DNA of 64,000 nucleotides from Mesoterricola silvestris (GTDB lineage Bacteria; Acidobacteriota; Holophagae; Holophagales; Holophagaceae), in assembly GCF_030295405.1 (NCBI RefSeq), contig NZ_AP027080.1, positions 1,426,001-1,490,000 of the forward strand. Direction: 5' to 3'. Positions 7,628 through 47,993 of this stretch are shown here, one piece after another. The notes beneath the pieces are model-generated. The model did no database searches. It was not told the origin of the DNA and was given only the letters and a program-made list of their open reading frames with translations. Position numbers and translations under genes: made by a program. How positions within the stretch are numbered: position 1 is the stretch's first letter; every line of letters starts with the position of its first letter.

Positions 7628-8143
7628 ATGGCGGCGAAAGGGGTGGTGGGGTGCCTCCTGTGCCTGGCGTCCCTCGTGGCCGGGGCGGACCAGCCCCGTA
7701 CCGTGAACGAGCGTCTCGTGGAGCTTTCGGCCATCCTGGGATCCGGTTCCCCCGCCGGCCCCGCGATCCGCGTCCAGGCCATCCGGGAGATCGCGGCCAT
7801 GGGCACCACCAGCGGCCTGGCCTCCGGAATGATCTTCGACCGCGCAAATTTCCGCTTCGAGCCCTCCGCCGAGGTGCGGGAAGCCGCGGCCCTGGCCCTG
7901 AGGCACGTGTGCGACCTGCGCAACCGGATGTTCGCCCTCCGGATCCGCAGGGTGGCCGACGCCACCCTGGAGCCCGAACCGAAGGTCCGCATCGCGGCCC
8001 TCCGCAGCCTCGCCGCCTTCCCCTGCGCCGACGCCGCCGCCACCGTCCTGGAAGCCTGCGACGCCGGCAAGGAACCGGATGAATCCGTGCGCGAAGCCGC
8101 CCGGGAACTGGTTCGGAAGGGCCTCGCCTCCAGCGCCTACTAA
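7628..8143 (+). CDS. secreted HEAT-repeat-like protein of unknown function
   Basis: A 171-residue protein with an N-terminal signal peptide (MAAKGVVGCLLCLASLVAGA). It is followed by alpha-helical repeats of HEAT type, e.g. IRVQAIREIAAMGTTSGL, VREAAALALRHVCDLRNR, VRIAALRSLAAFP and VREAARELVRKG. Such repeats usually form protein-binding solenoids; no catalytic motif is visible. ATG 7628 starts the signal peptide. There is no strong ribosome-binding site, and TATAGT at 7600-7605 could be a -10 box. Its stop overlaps the convergent hemerythrin gene by four bases. Confidence 0.7.
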   Translation: MAAKGVVGCLLCLASLVAGADQPRTVNERLVELSAILGSGSPAGPAIRVQAIREIAAMGTTSGLASGMIFDRANFRFEPSAEVREAAALALRHVCDLRNRMFALRIRRVADATLEPEPKVRIAALRSLAAFPCADAAATVLEACDAGKEPDESVREAARELVRKGLASSAY

Positions 8144-8550
8144 GCTTCCACCGGATGTTCCTTAAGGTACTCAAACACCGCCAAGTCCCAGGTGAGGATG
8201 TGGTTGGTGAGCCAGTCGCCCAGGAACTTGCCCAGGCCCTCGGGGGGCACCAGGGAGGGATCCTGGTCGCGCAGTTCGCGGATGAATTTAACGCGCAGCA
8301 GCAGGCGTTCGTGCTCGGTCTTGTGGAGGGCCAGGCTGGGGTAGTCGGCGCGCACCATCAGGAATTCCTCGGTGACGAAGTGCTCGCGGGCGTAGCGTTC
8401 CAGGAAGGCCAGCATCTCGTCCATCCTCTGGGGGGCCAGGCCGGCCTCCAGGGCCAGGTCGAATTCGTTGATGGCGGCGAACAGGGCTTCGTGCTGGTGG
8501 TCCACCAGGCCGTGTCCCGTGATGAACTGTTCGCCCCACTGGATGCGCAT
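8140..8550 (-). CDS. bacteriohemerythrin
   Basis: An oxygen-binding non-haem di-iron protein of 136 residues. The ligand pattern of the family is present: VDHQHEALF, HFVTEEFL, HKTEHERLL and HILTWDLAVF supply the His, Glu and Asp ligands of the di-iron site. The opening MRIQWGEQFITGHG is typical. It is a single domain, not fused to a chemotaxis receptor or GGDEF domain. Oxygen storage, delivery or sensing are all possible roles; the nearby chemotaxis-like protein at 9092-9751 is suggestive but on the other strand. Confidence 0.93.
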   Translation of the reverse strand: MRIQWGEQFITGHGLVDHQHEALFAAINEFDLALEAGLAPQRMDEMLAFLERYAREHFVTEEFLMVRADYPSLALHKTEHERLLLRVKFIRELRDQDPSLVPPEGLGKFLGDWLTNHILTWDLAVFEYLKEHPVEA

Positions 8551-8612
8551 GGAAGGCCCCCTTTGCCCGGTGTGCCGGATGGGTTCATCGTCGCGGCAAC
8601 GGGGCCGGATGT

Positions 8613-8975
8613 CTACCTTTCCAGCTGGGAGGCCAGCTTGTCAGCCAGTTCGCCGGACATTTCCAGGACCACGGGCAGCTCCTCCCGCCGGATGTCGTCC
8701 ACATGGATGCCGCAGGCGACGCTCACGGCAACGCCCAGGCGCGAGGCGAGGCGGGTGGCGATGCTGCGGGCCAGGTCGTCCTCCCGGTGTCCCAGCACGG
8801 CCAGCACGGAGGTGGTCGCGCCGTCGCCCTTGGGCCTCGGGAGGCCCAGGGCCACGGCCCCGATGTGTTCCCGGTCGCCTCCGGAGAGGCTCACGGAGAG
8901 GTCGCGGCCCATGGGCACGCAGGTCATCCGGAGGGCCACCCGTCCCCGGGATGCGGTGAGCGTGATCGGTTCCAT
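8613..8975 (-). CDS. LpdD-like protein (prenylated-flavin chaperone family, tentative)
   Basis: A 120-residue protein beginning MEPITLTASRGRVALRM. The segment GGDREHIGAVALGLPRP followed by VLAVLGHREDDLARSIATRL and VACGIHVDD resembles my recollection of the LpdD/gallate decarboxylase subunit D family, small proteins linked to UbiD-type decarboxylases that use prenylated FMN. No UbiD or UbiX homologue lies in this window, so the functional link is unsupported by context. ATG 8975 is chosen over an upstream in-frame start at 8996 because AGGGAGG sits at proper spacing before it. Confidence applies to the gene; the family call is weaker. Confidence 0.62.
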   Translation of the reverse strand: MEPITLTASRGRVALRMTCVPMGRDLSVSLSGGDREHIGAVALGLPRPKGDGATTSVLAVLGHREDDLARSIATRLASRLGVAVSVACGIHVDDIRREELPVVLEMSGELADKLASQLER

Positions 8976-42429: not shown

Positions 42430-44124
42430 ATGGTCACGACGAAACTGAAGCTGGTTTTCCTGGCCATGTTGCCAATCGTCCTCGCCGGTCAGACCTCGCA
42501 GTACCGCATCCTCTATCCCCCTCACGCGACCCTCGCGGGTGCGAGCGCCTCCGGACCGGTGGAGGGAGGGGCTCAGGGCTCCTCGAATCTGTTCCCGGTG
42601 GTGACGGGAAACGGGTGGTCCGTGGATATGGGCAAGGGGGCCCTGTCCATCGTGGTTCCGGTGGGCACGGTTCCCGGTGAACTGCCCATTCCGCTGACGT
42701 TCCGGTTCAACGCATCCCAGGCCTTCCCAGTCGTTAAAGCCTCGATTTATGTGGCGGGAGGCGCAGGTGCGGCCGTTAAGACAGCAGGCATGTCCCCCAT
42801 GATCGGAACAGGGGGGCGATATGCCTCCGGATTCGCCAGGTACAATCGGCCCATATTCGGAACGGTGGATTTCGGTTTCATTTCTTCCGGAGACGGCCAA
42901 TCCGTTCCGGGCACGGATGATGACCTGGCCGGCAAGTTCGATAGCTTCACCCCGAACAGCTACTACGTCCTCGAGGACGGCACCGTTCATTCCCAACTGG
43001 ATTTCTCGACCATGGGGGGAACCTTCAGCCTTCCTCCGCGCTTCGGGTTTTCGGCCAAGGCCGCCAGCGCGGTTTCCATCAATTCCGTCGGTACGCTCGT
43101 CACCTATCCGGCCGTCGCATCCGATCTGGGGTCCTGGGCAACCCAGGCTGCGGGGTTGGCGCCCGTGGGTTTCACGGCGGGTGCCCACACCGGGTACAAG
43201 GTGGTCATGGATCGGGACAGGGCCCGGGTCTATGCCTACGCCCAGGAACTGTACGCCTGGGTTCCCATCCTGTGGGTGGACAGGTTCGGCCATTGGGTGG
43301 GATTCCAGTGGAAGAACACCACCAGCGGACTCCCCAGCGGCATCGCCTCGGTGCGCTCCGTCAAGGTCCTGAACCACCGGAACAAAGGGGTCCAGGTGCA
43401 GTGGGCGGAACCCACGGCGGGGAGTTCAGCGCCCCTGGGAATCTACCTGCGGGCCGATTTCATCAATATCCAGGCTCCCACGCTCCAGGCCACGGGGTAT
43501 CCGGATCTGGCGGGAACCATGGCGCGGACGATACTCCCTCTCGCCGCGGGTCCCGACCTTCGCCCCACGACGCTCCAGATCGGCAATCCGCTGATGGGTG
43601 CGCCCAATTGGCTCCAGTTGCCGGTTCCGTCCCCCGTGGGCTCAGGCGCCTGGCCCTCCCAAGACCTGTCCTGGGCATTCAACTACGTCACTCCCTCTCT
43701 GGATGAACTGGCCAGTTTCACGGATTCGAGGGGCCTGACCACCGTCCTGGGCTGGCAGACCACCACGCTCCTTGACCCCACCGCGGCCGCCACGGGCGCT
43801 TCGCAGATGGTCGACATCTACAGGAGCGTTCACACCGCGGTCTCGACCGATTCGGGCATGACCTTGTCGCGTACCTGGACGTGGAACCTTCCCGCGGCAC
43901 CGTCCGCGACCGTGTGGCAAAACGCGTATTCGCAAGCCTGGTCCGGAACCCAAAGCTGGAATGACGCGGCCATCCAGGCAGGTCACCGCGGACGGAGCCC
44001 TGACCTCGACCCAAAGCTACAGCCTGGGGTCCCCCGTCGGTTTGGATGGAACCATTTCCGCCAAGGAATCCTGGAAAACGACCACCACGAACATGCCGGA
44101 TCGAATTCAGACCCGGGTCATTGA
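42430..44124 (+). CDS. RHS-family secreted protein, N-terminal part (frameshifted)
   Basis: The reading frame begins with a signal peptide (KLKLVFLAMLPIVLAGQ). It continues as a beta-rich region of the kind found before RHS repeats (DMGKGALSIVVPVGTVPGEL, YYVLEDGTVHSQLDFSTMGG, LDELASFTDSRGLTTVLGW). After SGTQSWNDAAIQ (about 43975) the frame turns into Arg/Pro/His-rich non-homologous sequence and stops at 44124. The RHS sequence resumes one base over in the frame of the next entry. The true product is therefore probably one protein of about 1,640 residues spanning 42430-47362, broken or shifted by one base near 43974. The Sec-type signal suggests export through the inner membrane. Confidence 0.8.
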   Translation: MVTTKLKLVFLAMLPIVLAGQTSQYRILYPPHATLAGASASGPVEGGAQGSSNLFPVVTGNGWSVDMGKGALSIVVPVGTVPGELPIPLTFRFNASQAFPVVKASIYVAGGAGAAVKTAGMSPMIGTGGRYASGFARYNRPIFGTVDFGFISSGDGQSVPGTDDDLAGKFDSFTPNSYYVLEDGTVHSQLDFSTMGGTFSLPPRFGFSAKAASAVSINSVGTLVTYPAVASDLGSWATQAAGLAPVGFTAGAHTGYKVVMDRDRARVYAYAQELYAWVPILWVDRFGHWVGFQWKNTTSGLPSGIASVRSVKVLNHRNKGVQVQWAEPTAGSSAPLGIYLRADFINIQAPTLQATGYPDLAGTMARTILPLAAGPDLRPTTLQIGNPLMGAPNWLQLPVPSPVGSGAWPSQDLSWAFNYVTPSLDELASFTDSRGLTTVLGWQTTTLLDPTAAATGASQMVDIYRSVHTAVSTDSGMTLSRTWTWNLPAAPSATVWQNAYSQAWSGTQSWNDAAIQAGHRGRSPDLDPKLQPGVPRRFGWNHFRQGILENDHHEHAGSNSDPGH

Positions 44125-47100
44125 TGCGGCCTACGGAACCCCGATCTCTGAGACCCTCGCATCAGGGTCGTATTTTATGACACGCTACTACACCTACGAC
44201 CGCCACCCGGAGTTCCTGGATCCCGCGAGGACCACCAGCGTAAGGGACGTGCGATCGGATCCTTCGGGGCCTCAGGCGAATCCGCCCACCCAGTCGACTA
44301 CCTTCGACGCAACCACGTTCCTTCCCCTGGGAACCTACCTGGACGGCGGGTCCTCCGTGGGCCAGATCGGCAGGGCCTTCACCTATGCTTCCAGTGGGAA
44401 CCTATCGGGACACCTGCAAACGGTGACCAATTACGCCACGGGCGCGGTCTTCAGCGCCGCGGGCGTGGCCACGCAGACCTGTGCGCTGGACCCGGCCACG
44501 GCCCTGCCGTCGTCCCTGAGCGTCACCTACGATGGACCCGCGGGGTACACCAACGCCTTTTCGAACGGGTGGACAGCCTACGATACGGCCGACCGTCCAA
44601 CAACCAGCACCGATGGCCTTGGCGTGGTCACCCAGACCACCTACGATGGGAGAGGACGCGTAACGACCCTTCAAAGGGGAGGCCAGAGCGACGTCACCTT
44701 CACCTATCCCTCGGAAACCACCTGGACAAGCACGCAGAACCTCCGCAATACGGTCGTGAACCTGGATGCGTTCGGCCGGGTGAAGACCCGCTTGCGCGGC
44801 GTAGATGGGGTGACCGAAATCTGCACCTATGATGGGAACGGGAACCCGGCCTCCCTCCAGGAACGTTCGTCCGCGGGAAATAGCCGGGTTCAGGCCCGGA
44901 CCTTTGATGGCCTGGGCAGGCTCAAGACCCACACACCGCTTCGGGGCCCCATGGTCACGTACAGCTATTCCACCGATTCAAGTGGGGGGCAGGTGACGTC
45001 CATTGCCTATTCCGGGCAGAGCTTCACCACCAGCACCACCCAGGATTGCTGGGGACAGACGGTCGCCTCCACGGATCCCTATGCCACGGTCACAACCACA
45101 CGGTATGACGCCATGGGCCATGTCGTCTCCCTCACGACGACGCCCGCCGGGTTGGTGGGGCAGACCCGGACCTTCACGTACAATGCCGCAGGGCTCCTGG
45201 TGAACCGGACCAGCCCTGAAACCGGAACGACGACCTTCGGCCCCACCTTCAATCAATTGGGCCTTCCCCTCACGGTCACGGAGGGCACGGGACGTGCACG
45301 CACTATCAGTTACGATGGGTTGGGACGGATACGAACCGTGGTGAATGGGACGGACCAGGCCATAACCCATTTCAATGGGCTGAGAATCTCCACCTGCAGC
45401 ACGACCAGTGCTGGCCAGGCGTCCTCGATCCAGTACACCCTGGACGACTACGGGCGCCTCCAGGCCGAGCAGGTGCTCCCCCCGGGCGCAACGACCCCCT
45501 GGAACCAGTCCTATACCTACGATTCGGCGGGTCGAATGCGTTCCGTGACCTACCCGGACGGGAGGATCGTCGGGTACGTCTTCGATGACACCGGCAATTT
45601 TGGGCGGACGACCTCCGTTACCGTCAATGGCGCGACCTTCGCCAATGTGACGTACGATGAATTCGGATGGGGCAATCGAAGGACCTTGACCTTTGTTTCC
45701 ACCGGGTCATCGAATACATGGGAATATACCTCCGACGGAACCCAGCTTTCCAGCCAGACCGTGAACCCGGTTGGTTCCAGCGCCATCGTGCGGAACTACG
45801 CCTACGATGCGCTCAACCATCTGAATCAGGCCGGGGAATGGGCTTCCCTGAGCCATGATTTCCTCGGGCGCCTGACGTCGGCTTCGGGCGATGGGGTAAG
45901 CGCAACGTTCAGCCATGACGGATACGGCAACAATACCTATTCGCAGGCGGGATCCGCCGCAGGCTTCAACAACTTTGCATACCTGCCCCTGCCTTCCAAC
46001 CGGGCGACGGCCTCGGACACGAGCGGCGCCGCGACCGGCTGGTCCTACAACGCCAACGGCGAGGCGCTCACCGCCGGGACCGCCCTGGGGAGCGTGTATC
46101 CCCAGTTGGGTCTCGCCTGGGATGGCCTTGACCGCCTGAGCAGCAGCAGTCTGCCCGGCTTCACGGAATCCTATGGCTACCTTCCGAACGGCCTGCGCGT
46201 GCAACGCCTGAACAGCGCCGATCCGTCCCAGAACCGGCGCTACGCCTACGCTTTCACGGGGAACCTCCTGGCGGAGTATACGGGGTCGGGCAACACCTGG
46301 TCGTGGCTCGGGGATATCGTCTACCTGGGCTCCCAGGCGATCGCCGAATTCTCGAATGCGGGCACCTTGGAGTTGCACGCCGACCACCTGGGAACGCCCA
46401 AGGTTCTCACAAGCGGACAAACCGGCGCCCTCCTTGGGATCCAGGCCTTCGGCCCGTTCGGCGAGCCGAGGGGCTCCTACCTGACCCTGACGGGCTATAC
46501 CGGACACCAGCAGGCTGACTCGACGGGGCTCATATACATGCGCGGGCGGTTCTACAGCCCGGCGTGGCACCGGTTCCTGAACAGCGACCAGGGGGCGGAC
46601 CCGAATCAGCCTAATCAGTATGCATACTGCGGTGGCAGCCCTTTTATGCTGACTGACCCCTCAGGATTGGATTCCAGTGGGTATTGGGTCTACCTCATTA
46701 CGTGTAACGGCGCTGGTATCTATGTTTCCACTAGTAAAGAGGATGCAGAAAGTGCTCTGATTAATTATCAGGCGCACGGTACCGAGAAATATGGCTCCGA
46801 TGCCCAATTCCAAATGACTGGAACATATTATTCAATGGACAGCAAGTCGACTACCCCTTCTTTCCAAACTGATTCTGGCAGATGGGTGACATTAACTAGC
46901 AGTGGTGAATGGATTTATGGCATTGCCCCTATCACAGAAGCCGGGGATAGTAGATCGTCGCAAACAGATGTTCAATTCGATAAGCCGAAAATTTGGTTTG
47001 GAGATATCAGGTACCCTGAAAGACCTACGATTGGGGATTATGCATTCAAGACTCTGGGGCTCGGACCAGCTTCGGTTACCTTATACACAGATAAGTTTGG

Positions 47101-47362
47101 TGGATATCACGTAGCAAATAGCCTTGGGAAGGGAATAGGAATTCCTTTCCAGGCTGGTTACGGATGGTTTTCCGAAAGCGTGTCTTCCTCTGCAGAGGTT
47201 TCTGAGCGATTGAAGGGCTTGAGCTTTACTCTTGGTGCTGCGGCAGCTGGTGGTGTGAACGCTGTCGGGTCTACCCCGATCATTCCTGCGAGTCAAACGG
47301 CAGCCGAGGTGAGTTTTGGACCGCCTTCCGCGAGTGTAGGCGTGAGTTGGGGTTGGAATTGA
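43961..47362 (+). CDS. RHS-repeat protein, C-terminal part with variable toxin-like tip
   Basis: 1,133 residues in the +1 frame relative to the N-terminal part; homologous sequence begins at about RQVTADGALTSTQSYSLG. Many YD/RHS repeats follow, such as TYDGRGRVTTLQRGG, TYDGNGNPASLQERS, TFDGLGRLKTHTP and TYDSAGRMRSVTYPDGR. The RHS core near 46500-46670 has GLIYMRGRFYSPAWHRFLNS, NQYAYCGG and PFMLTDPSGLD, the conserved end of the encapsulating shell. The last ~230 residues after DPSGL are a separate tip, encoded by clearly AT-richer DNA and matching no family I recognise; its tail is Gly/Ser-rich and ends ASVGVSWGWN. This is the layout of a polymorphic toxin. ATG 43961 is only where the open frame has an ATG, not a proven start. 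Confidence 0.85.
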   Translation: MTRPSRQVTADGALTSTQSYSLGSPVGLDGTISAKESWKTTTTNMPDRIQTRVIDAAYGTPISETLASGSYFMTRYYTYDRHPEFLDPARTTSVRDVRSDPSGPQANPPTQSTTFDATTFLPLGTYLDGGSSVGQIGRAFTYASSGNLSGHLQTVTNYATGAVFSAAGVATQTCALDPATALPSSLSVTYDGPAGYTNAFSNGWTAYDTADRPTTSTDGLGVVTQTTYDGRGRVTTLQRGGQSDVTFTYPSETTWTSTQNLRNTVVNLDAFGRVKTRLRGVDGVTEICTYDGNGNPASLQERSSAGNSRVQARTFDGLGRLKTHTPLRGPMVTYSYSTDSSGGQVTSIAYSGQSFTTSTTQDCWGQTVASTDPYATVTTTRYDAMGHVVSLTTTPAGLVGQTRTFTYNAAGLLVNRTSPETGTTTFGPTFNQLGLPLTVTEGTGRARTISYDGLGRIRTVVNGTDQAITHFNGLRISTCSTTSAGQASSIQYTLDDYGRLQAEQVLPPGATTPWNQSYTYDSAGRMRSVTYPDGRIVGYVFDDTGNFGRTTSVTVNGATFANVTYDEFGWGNRRTLTFVSTGSSNTWEYTSDGTQLSSQTVNPVGSSAIVRNYAYDALNHLNQAGEWASLSHDFLGRLTSASGDGVSATFSHDGYGNNTYSQAGSAAGFNNFAYLPLPSNRATASDTSGAATGWSYNANGEALTAGTALGSVYPQLGLAWDGLDRLSSSSLPGFTESYGYLPNGLRVQRLNSADPSQNRRYAYAFTGNLLAEYTGSGNTWSWLGDIVYLGSQAIAEFSNAGTLELHADHLGTPKVLTSGQTGALLGIQAFGPFGEPRGSYLTLTGYTGHQQADSTGLIYMRGRFYSPAWHRFLNSDQGADPNQPNQYAYCGGSPFMLTDPSGLDSSGYWVYLITCNGAGIYVSTSKEDAESALINYQAHGTEKYGSDAQFQMTGTYYSMDSKSTTPSFQTDSGRWVTLTSSGEWIYGIAPITEAGDSRSSQTDVQFDKPKIWFGDIRYPERPTIGDYAFKTLGLGPASVTLYTDKFGGYHVANSLGKGIGIPFQAGYGWFSESVSSSAEVSERLKGLSFTLGAAAAGGVNAVGSTPIIPASQTAAEVSFGPPSASVGVSWGWN

Positions 47363-47375
47363 AAGGAGTCCAGGA

Positions 47376-47708
47376 ATGAAAATGCGTCGGCTGCTTGTTA
47401 ATACACTCGGTATCCTCACGGTATTGCCTGTGATTGGCTTGATAGGCATTGGCATTTGTTTGGCAACTGGGCATGTATTTCCAATATTATTTGGAACAGA
47501 AGAGAACGGACATGTCGGTATAGCCATTATTGCTTTAGTTCTTAGTTGGTTTGTTCTGATAATCATTTATATTCTACATTCATACAGCAACGCTTCTTTG
47601 TCTAAATCTGAAAAAGATAAATGGAGAATACTATTTTCGGTCATTCCATATATTGCAATGCTTAAATATTGGTACAAATTCATGTATGAAAACGGGAGGA
47701 AGGAATGA
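47376..47708 (+). CDS. small membrane protein, candidate immunity protein for the RHS toxin
   Basis: 110 residues starting 13 bases after the RHS stop, with GGAGTCCAGGA upstream. Two strong membrane helices (LGILTVLPVIGLIGIGICLA and GIAIIALVLSWFVLIIIYIL) and a third hydrophobic stretch (RILFSVIPYIAMLKYWYKFM) with a basic C-terminus. The coding DNA is very AT-rich for this genome (20 G/C in 60 bases at 47581-47640). No family recognised. Position, size, composition and coupling to the toxin tip argue for immunity function; a membrane location would suit a toxin acting at the inner membrane. That is inference. Confidence 0.72.
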   Translation: MKMRRLLVNTLGILTVLPVIGLIGIGICLATGHVFPILFGTEENGHVGIAIIALVLSWFVLIIIYILHSYSNASLSKSEKDKWRILFSVIPYIAMLKYWYKFMYENGRKE

Positions 47709-47993
47709 GTTTTCGCAAGCAGCGTGGAGGGTCAGTTCTGGTGTGTTAGATGCAACATCTGCTTGTGTCAATTGACAAGTTTAAAATCAGAGCATCCGGC
47801 GCTTCCGTTTGCATAATTTGCAATTTATAGGATGAAGCTTGCACTTTGCTCTGCCTTCCAGAAGTCTCTTCGTCTGACGGTTCCTGGAACGTGCTTTTAC
47901 GCTTGGACACACCCCTCGCTCTAGCCGCAGCCCACGCCTTCTTGAAAGCCGCCCCTGCCCACGGCAGTATAAAGGCATACCTAGGAGATTCTC
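47709..47993. other. AT-rich non-coding remnant between the immunity gene and Kelch genes
   Basis: These 285 bases keep the low G+C of the toxin tip for about the first half, then return to the genome average. A perfect 12-base palindrome TGTCAATTGACA sits near 47766. A 14-codon open frame (MSFRKQRGGSVLVC) overlaps the immunity stop. It could be a relic of a displaced toxin or immunity cassette, but nothing is recognisable. TATAAA near 47967 and AGGAG before ATG 47994 may serve the next gene. Confidence 0.35.

Follow-up and report, generated by a model that had tools for sequence, protein, structure and literature searches.

Several toxin systems described so far are close to the locus reported here. 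Tse5 of Pseudomonas aeruginosa is an Rhs pore-forming effector with its own immunity protein (PMC10684867, PMC9637101), and this protein, Tsi5, is a two-TM immunity protein (PMC9637101). For the rhs genes of Enterobacteriaceae, a contrast between core and tip and the displacement of C-terminal tips have been described (PMC2935791). Bacterial teneurin-like proteins (TLPs) consist of a YD shell and a variable C-terminal toxin, with the immunity gene in the same operon; some of them have signal peptides, and they are reported from Acidobacteriota too (PMC13018210). CDI ionophore toxins, which are accompanied by hydrophobic CdiI proteins, are two-part toxins with an entry module and an effector (PMC11630599). 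RHS tips in general represent a large reservoir of unassigned antibacterial activities.

We analysed one stretch of DNA of 64 kb (here referred to as the window) and focused on the end of an RHS gene and the small gene behind it, which probably encode a toxin and its immunity protein. As a whole, we favour with moderate confidence the explanation that this is an RHS polymorphic-toxin module made of an incoming cassette, with a membrane-acting tip and a membrane immunity protein. All features lie on the + strand and are given in coordinates of the window. The RHS core with its YD repeats (43961-46669) belongs to an ORF of 43961-47362, which contains the core up to TDPSGL and then the tip in the same frame. 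PF05593 matches the core with an E-value of 2.3e-18, and TIGR03696 (Rhs_assc_core) reaches 57.4 bits against a cut-off of 32.5, with its match ending at residue 903. Both the YD repeats and the RHS-associated core that mark RHS polymorphic toxins are therefore present. The toxin tip (46670-47362, stop included) has 230 residues, from the D at 46670 to the TGA stop at 47360-47362, and sets in with an abrupt drop in GC. It is separated by 13 bases (47363-47375, AAGGAGTCCAGGA), including a Shine-Dalgarno-like AAGGAG, from the candidate immunity gene (47376-47708), whose product P0002 is a three-helix membrane protein of 110 aa, as judged from hydropathy, AlphaFold and its family. The sizes of about 230 and 110 residues and the 13-base gap given in the preliminary description of this DNA are exact. 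Scans for promoters and terminators gave hits at chance level only.

The GC content falls from 63% in the core to 48.5% in the tip and 36.3% in the small gene, while GC3 falls from 0.78 to 0.43 and 0.35, and the break in both measures sits exactly at DPSGL. In fact, the lowest-GC 699-bp segments of the whole 64 kb are all located here, at 0.441 and so about 5 sd below the mean of 0.70 (sd 0.053). The fall in GC after DPSGL had been claimed before, and we obtained the same values (48.3% at 46741-46800 and 33.3% at 47581-47640). The stretch after the small gene (47709-47993) is also low in GC (about 43% at first) and has no convincing ORF; it is possibly a leftover of an older cassette. For aspartyl autocleavage, the motif DPXG-X18/19-DPXG before the tip was used as the criterion. 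The candidate segment (46586-46669, SDQGA...TDPSGL) contains DPSGL, and its first motif reads DQGA rather than DPxG. Its Asp pair is 23 residues apart, the same spacing as D1141 and D1164 of Tse5, and Leu is at the cleavage position. Judged from these residues, autocleavage ahead of the tip is plausible.

Different tips on related cores were found in the own genome and in the genus. Three other RHS genes of the own genome (L011, L012 and L013, at 2.39, 3.95 and 4.84 Mb) are 99.6% identical over their first 4.86 kb and then diverge into three different tips, all with a GC content below that of the respective core and followed by different genes. Two of these tips have their first 46 residues in common and then part, and none of the three matches Pfam. 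A further RHS locus of this genome (L014) has yet another tip. The best-scoring match to the window core comes from the same genus (G001, 42% over 922 aligned positions), and its tip and downstream genes, again low in GC, are unrelated to those of the window. Conserved cores with exchangeable low-GC tips thus occur in the own genome and in G001. The modular toxin/immunity layout proposed earlier is supported by this swapping, by the different tip of G001 and by the relative of P0002 that follows an RHS gene in another genome (G251, see below). Further downstream in G001, past the RHS gene and the gene next to it, lies a tip-like Gly-rich ORF with an ORF for a small membrane protein behind it (L040, reverse complement 8139-8588 and 8624-8920); the two resemble a tip that has been displaced along with its immunity gene. 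The own genome also has a T6SS sheath gene elsewhere (G000:C1:3400299-3401198, L082; VipB/TssC, E 3.7e-130), and no link between this gene and the RHS locus was found.

The N-terminal RHS half is encoded by an ORF of 564 aa in frame 1 (42430-44124). Of five same-genus genomes searched, four have RHS proteins whose N-terminal halves are homologous to it, and it has no match in Pfam. By hydropathy its N-terminus is hydrophobic, and a putative Sec signal (MVTTKLKLVFLAMLPIVLAGQ) is likely. Three-frame translation shows that the homology shifts from frame 1 to frame 2, that of the core, near 43.95-44.0 kb; this frame break (43940-44000) had been missed in the preliminary description. Unless it is a sequence error, no intact and export-competent full-length protein is encoded, so the RHS gene as a whole may be non-functional and full-length secretion is doubtful. 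The break reflects either a decaying carrier, a sequence error, or two proteins that assemble the shell. There is a substantial possibility, though we put it below even, that the locus is decaying, in which case the RHS carrier is a pseudogene and the tip and small gene form a captured cassette that, if retained at all, is retained for the immunity gene. The half and the core, here in different frames, are carried colinearly by relatives (in L041 and L042 of the genus, half and repeats are in one ORF); the related G001 gene keeps its frame but contains a TAG, in frame as well, near the equivalent position, and a degraded RHS start is fused to a tip remnant elsewhere in the own genome. However, the reading frames of core, tip and small gene are open throughout and their signals clean, and a single-base assembly error or a two-protein shell would account for the break as well. 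Such decay is compatible with the polymorphic-toxin module that we favour, as its present-day state. If the carrier is truly frame-broken with the cassette open, the tip and immunity gene would have been retained on a decaying carrier.

The tip begins with an N-terminal module, WVYxIxC...HGTExxG (46676-46885, residues 9-78 of P0001), which it has in common with the tip of an RHS-type protein in the same-genus genome G004 (30% identity, E 3e-5). AlphaFold without an alignment was confident only in this module, whose residues 11-60 were modelled as strand-strand-helix-strand (pLDDT of about 70-82), and not in the rest of the tip. A remnant of a G004-type tip is present in the own genome at 1.038 Mb (L044, E 1.9e-6). 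What comes after the module in both G004 and L044 is a Gly-rich hydrophobic segment; small AT-rich ORFs for membrane proteins lie behind it, and L044 has two of them in tandem. Because the module precedes different effector parts, it would fit a pre-toxin or entry domain. An alignment of the module found no relative in about 85,000 species genomes, and the alignments A1 and A2 had no match in viral contigs. In G004, an RHS N-terminal half is fused straight to the module-bearing tip without intervening YD repeats (L015:3536-6315), and an AT-rich two-helix ORF comes next. In L044, a degraded RHS start is joined to the Gly-rich tip (L044:3918-5318), and the two short membrane-protein ORFs are weakly similar to each other; this locus has the look of an orphan tip accompanied by two immunity genes in tandem.

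The C-terminal part of the tip (46934-47359) is the presumed effector. Like the tip as a whole, which is not strongly hydrophobic, it is rich in Gly, Ser and Ala. No transmembrane-like segment or hydrophobic helix was detected in the tip (the maximum mean hydropathy over 19 residues is 1.12), so the predicted transmembrane helices of Tse5-like alpha pore-forming Rhs-CT are missing, and beta-amphipathicity, checked as support for a beta-pore, was not above that of shuffles. The tip reached no cut-off in Pfam and NCBIfam, had no usable match in PDB and no match in plasmids or phages, and no relative turned up when about 85,000 species genomes were scanned with its peptide patterns; none of the relatives found by other searches has the whole tip. 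Among 396 genomes of the phylum, the C-terminal part has no credible relatives: the 27 weak matches outside the own genome were read singly and judged noise, and none was in an RHS protein. The same part gave only a meaningless match of E=10 in plasmids and nothing in phages. Foldseek with the tip model, which is of low confidence, and with the small-protein model gave no match with E < 0.4. A reading of 'VYLI...YVST' as a GIY-YIG nuclease was dropped by eye, as the relative has no second motif and there is no conserved Arg. The tip looks like an undescribed toxin type.

The earlier suggestion of a membrane-active toxin is plausible and was not borne out by the tip itself, given its hydropathy, the fold search with a low-confidence model and the search for C-terminal relatives. 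Membrane action we infer from the location of the immunity protein, with Tse5/Tsi5 and the CDI ionophores as precedents, and for this tip we regard it as an even matter. The absence of hydrophobic helices argues against a helical pore like that of Tse5, and leaves two options, a membrane toxin of non-helical type or an activity in the periplasm. The pair may also be real with a tip that is not pore-forming and instead has its site of action in the periplasm or its target bound to the membrane (an enzyme directed at envelope components would be one example), while the membrane protein shields the target or holds the toxin at the membrane. Its hydropathy and its Gly/Ser/Ala-rich composition speak for such a tip, but no enzyme family was matched and, in the Rhs and CDI systems known so far, immunity proteins in the membrane accompany depolarising toxins; we consider this reading less likely than not.

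P0002 has two strongly hydrophobic segments by hydropathy, and its AlphaFold model adds a third helix (helices 2-30, 45-71 and 77-109; mean pLDDT 68.6), in agreement with the two to three helices assigned to it before. It reached no cut-off in Pfam and NCBIfam, including PF13396, and had no match in plasmids. The HMM searches agree with the previous statement that neither protein matches a known family. The match to Bfi1 (NF053699) reached 20.1 bits of a cut-off of 100 and covered only the helical middle (model positions 27-86 of 131); as it is far under the cut-off, it was not counted for P0002. As candidate immunity protein, P0002 probably protects the producer.

The nearest relative of P0002 is found in another genus of the same family (G044), amid other short ORFs, and a two-sequence profile reached further proteins in the phylum. 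A profile of six of these, made without P0002 and the G044 protein, recovers both at about 1e-10 (E 1.5e-10 for P0002) against a background of 3,924 ORFs with the next non-member at 0.16; the six members had been found with a profile including P0002, so that the scoring is independent and the selection is not. The wider family has a K..W...YW/YF helix pattern in common with PLDc_N (PF13396)-like small membrane proteins, and the proteins of G361 and G251 match PF13396 just under the cut-off. In G251, which belongs to a different family of the phylum, the gene for a P0002 family member begins before an upstream RHS gene has ended, with 4 bases (ATGA) common to the two; this membrane protein has no match in viral contigs. 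The tip of that RHS gene (P0006) is also Gly/Ser-rich. Compared with the C-terminal part of the window tip, it scores 50, against 30 +/- 5 for shuffles, of which 3 in 1000 were as good, and seven control tips were weaker; this likeness in sequence is suggestive only. The other members examined are in ordinary neighbourhoods without an RHS gene nearby. The P0002 family is therefore not exclusive to toxins. As a tentative and rather doubtful proposal, the tips of the window and G251 may belong to a single undescribed class of envelope toxins that are rich in Gly and Ser, lack hydrophobic helices, are carried by RHS shells and are paired phylum-wide with three-helix PLDc_N-like membrane immunity proteins, with the 'WVY...HGTE' entry or pre-toxin module before some tips. 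That the tip is no toxin at all, e.g. the end of a YD-repeat protein with an adhesive or structural role, beside an incidental membrane protein, is very improbable, since the lack of a toxin family match and the ordinary neighbourhoods of other family members would agree with it but layout, spacing, composition and tip swapping all fit polymorphic toxins and the P0002 family also occurs directly after the G251 RHS gene.

For the polymorphic-toxin module, we propose the following mechanism. The low-GC tip would have arrived as a toxin cassette that brought its cognate immunity gene along and recombined onto the resident RHS core. With an unbroken carrier, the protein would be exported via the Sec signal, and the tip would be enclosed in the YD shell, whose Asp pair would cleave it off after DPSGL. 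Entry, or a pre-toxin role, would fall to the small N-terminal module, and the C-terminal part would attack the envelope of a competing cell, with the inner membrane as the most likely site. In the producer, the three-helix protein would be located in the inner membrane and block the C-terminal part there. The architecture, the shift in composition, the exchange of tips, the membrane nature of P0002 and the second occurrence of its family next to an RHS gene are observed, whereas toxicity, membrane target, cleavage and neutralisation are what we infer here. Several results speak against this mechanism: the tip has no hydrophobic helix and its beta-amphipathicity does not exceed that of shuffles, no homologue of the C-terminal part supplies an activity, most members of the P0002 family are away from toxins, and the carrier is frame-broken. 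Envelope damage by a tip that lacks hydrophobic helices but has a membrane protein as immunity partner would take an uncommon route. As the immunity family is again found next to an RHS gene in a different family of the phylum, it offers a way to collect further pairs.

Compared with the known systems, the layout is ordinary and the tip is unclassified. First, the window protein resembles Tse5 in its YD-repeat shell (phmmer 2e-9 over the core end), and the two systems have in common the Asp pair 23 residues apart, the C-terminal tip and the adjoining membrane immunity protein, here a candidate. However, Tse5-CT has predicted transmembrane helices and the window tip has none; Tse5 has a PAAR-like N-terminus and T6SS delivery, whereas the window protein has a Sec-like start; and P0002 has three helices where two TM regions are predicted for Tsi5. 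Second, the two-part toxin and the hydrophobic immunity protein are reminiscent of the CDI ionophores, but their effectors are five-helix bundles with a glycine zipper, while the window tip is without such helices; the G004 and L044 tips with their Gly-rich hydrophobic segments are nearer to them. As for PLDc_N (PF13396), P0002 has no match and most of the family members found are not toxin-linked. Third, TLPs have a superfold of FN-plug, NHL and YD shell; like them, the locus has a putative Sec-type N-terminus, a YD shell, a C-terminal tip and an adjoining candidate immunity gene, but its tip was unrelated by any search made. Finally, the core differs from the rhs genes of Enterobacteriaceae in clade and phylum and its carrier is frame-broken, but like them it has a GC-rich core and an AT-rich exchangeable tip, with different tips on near-identical cores.
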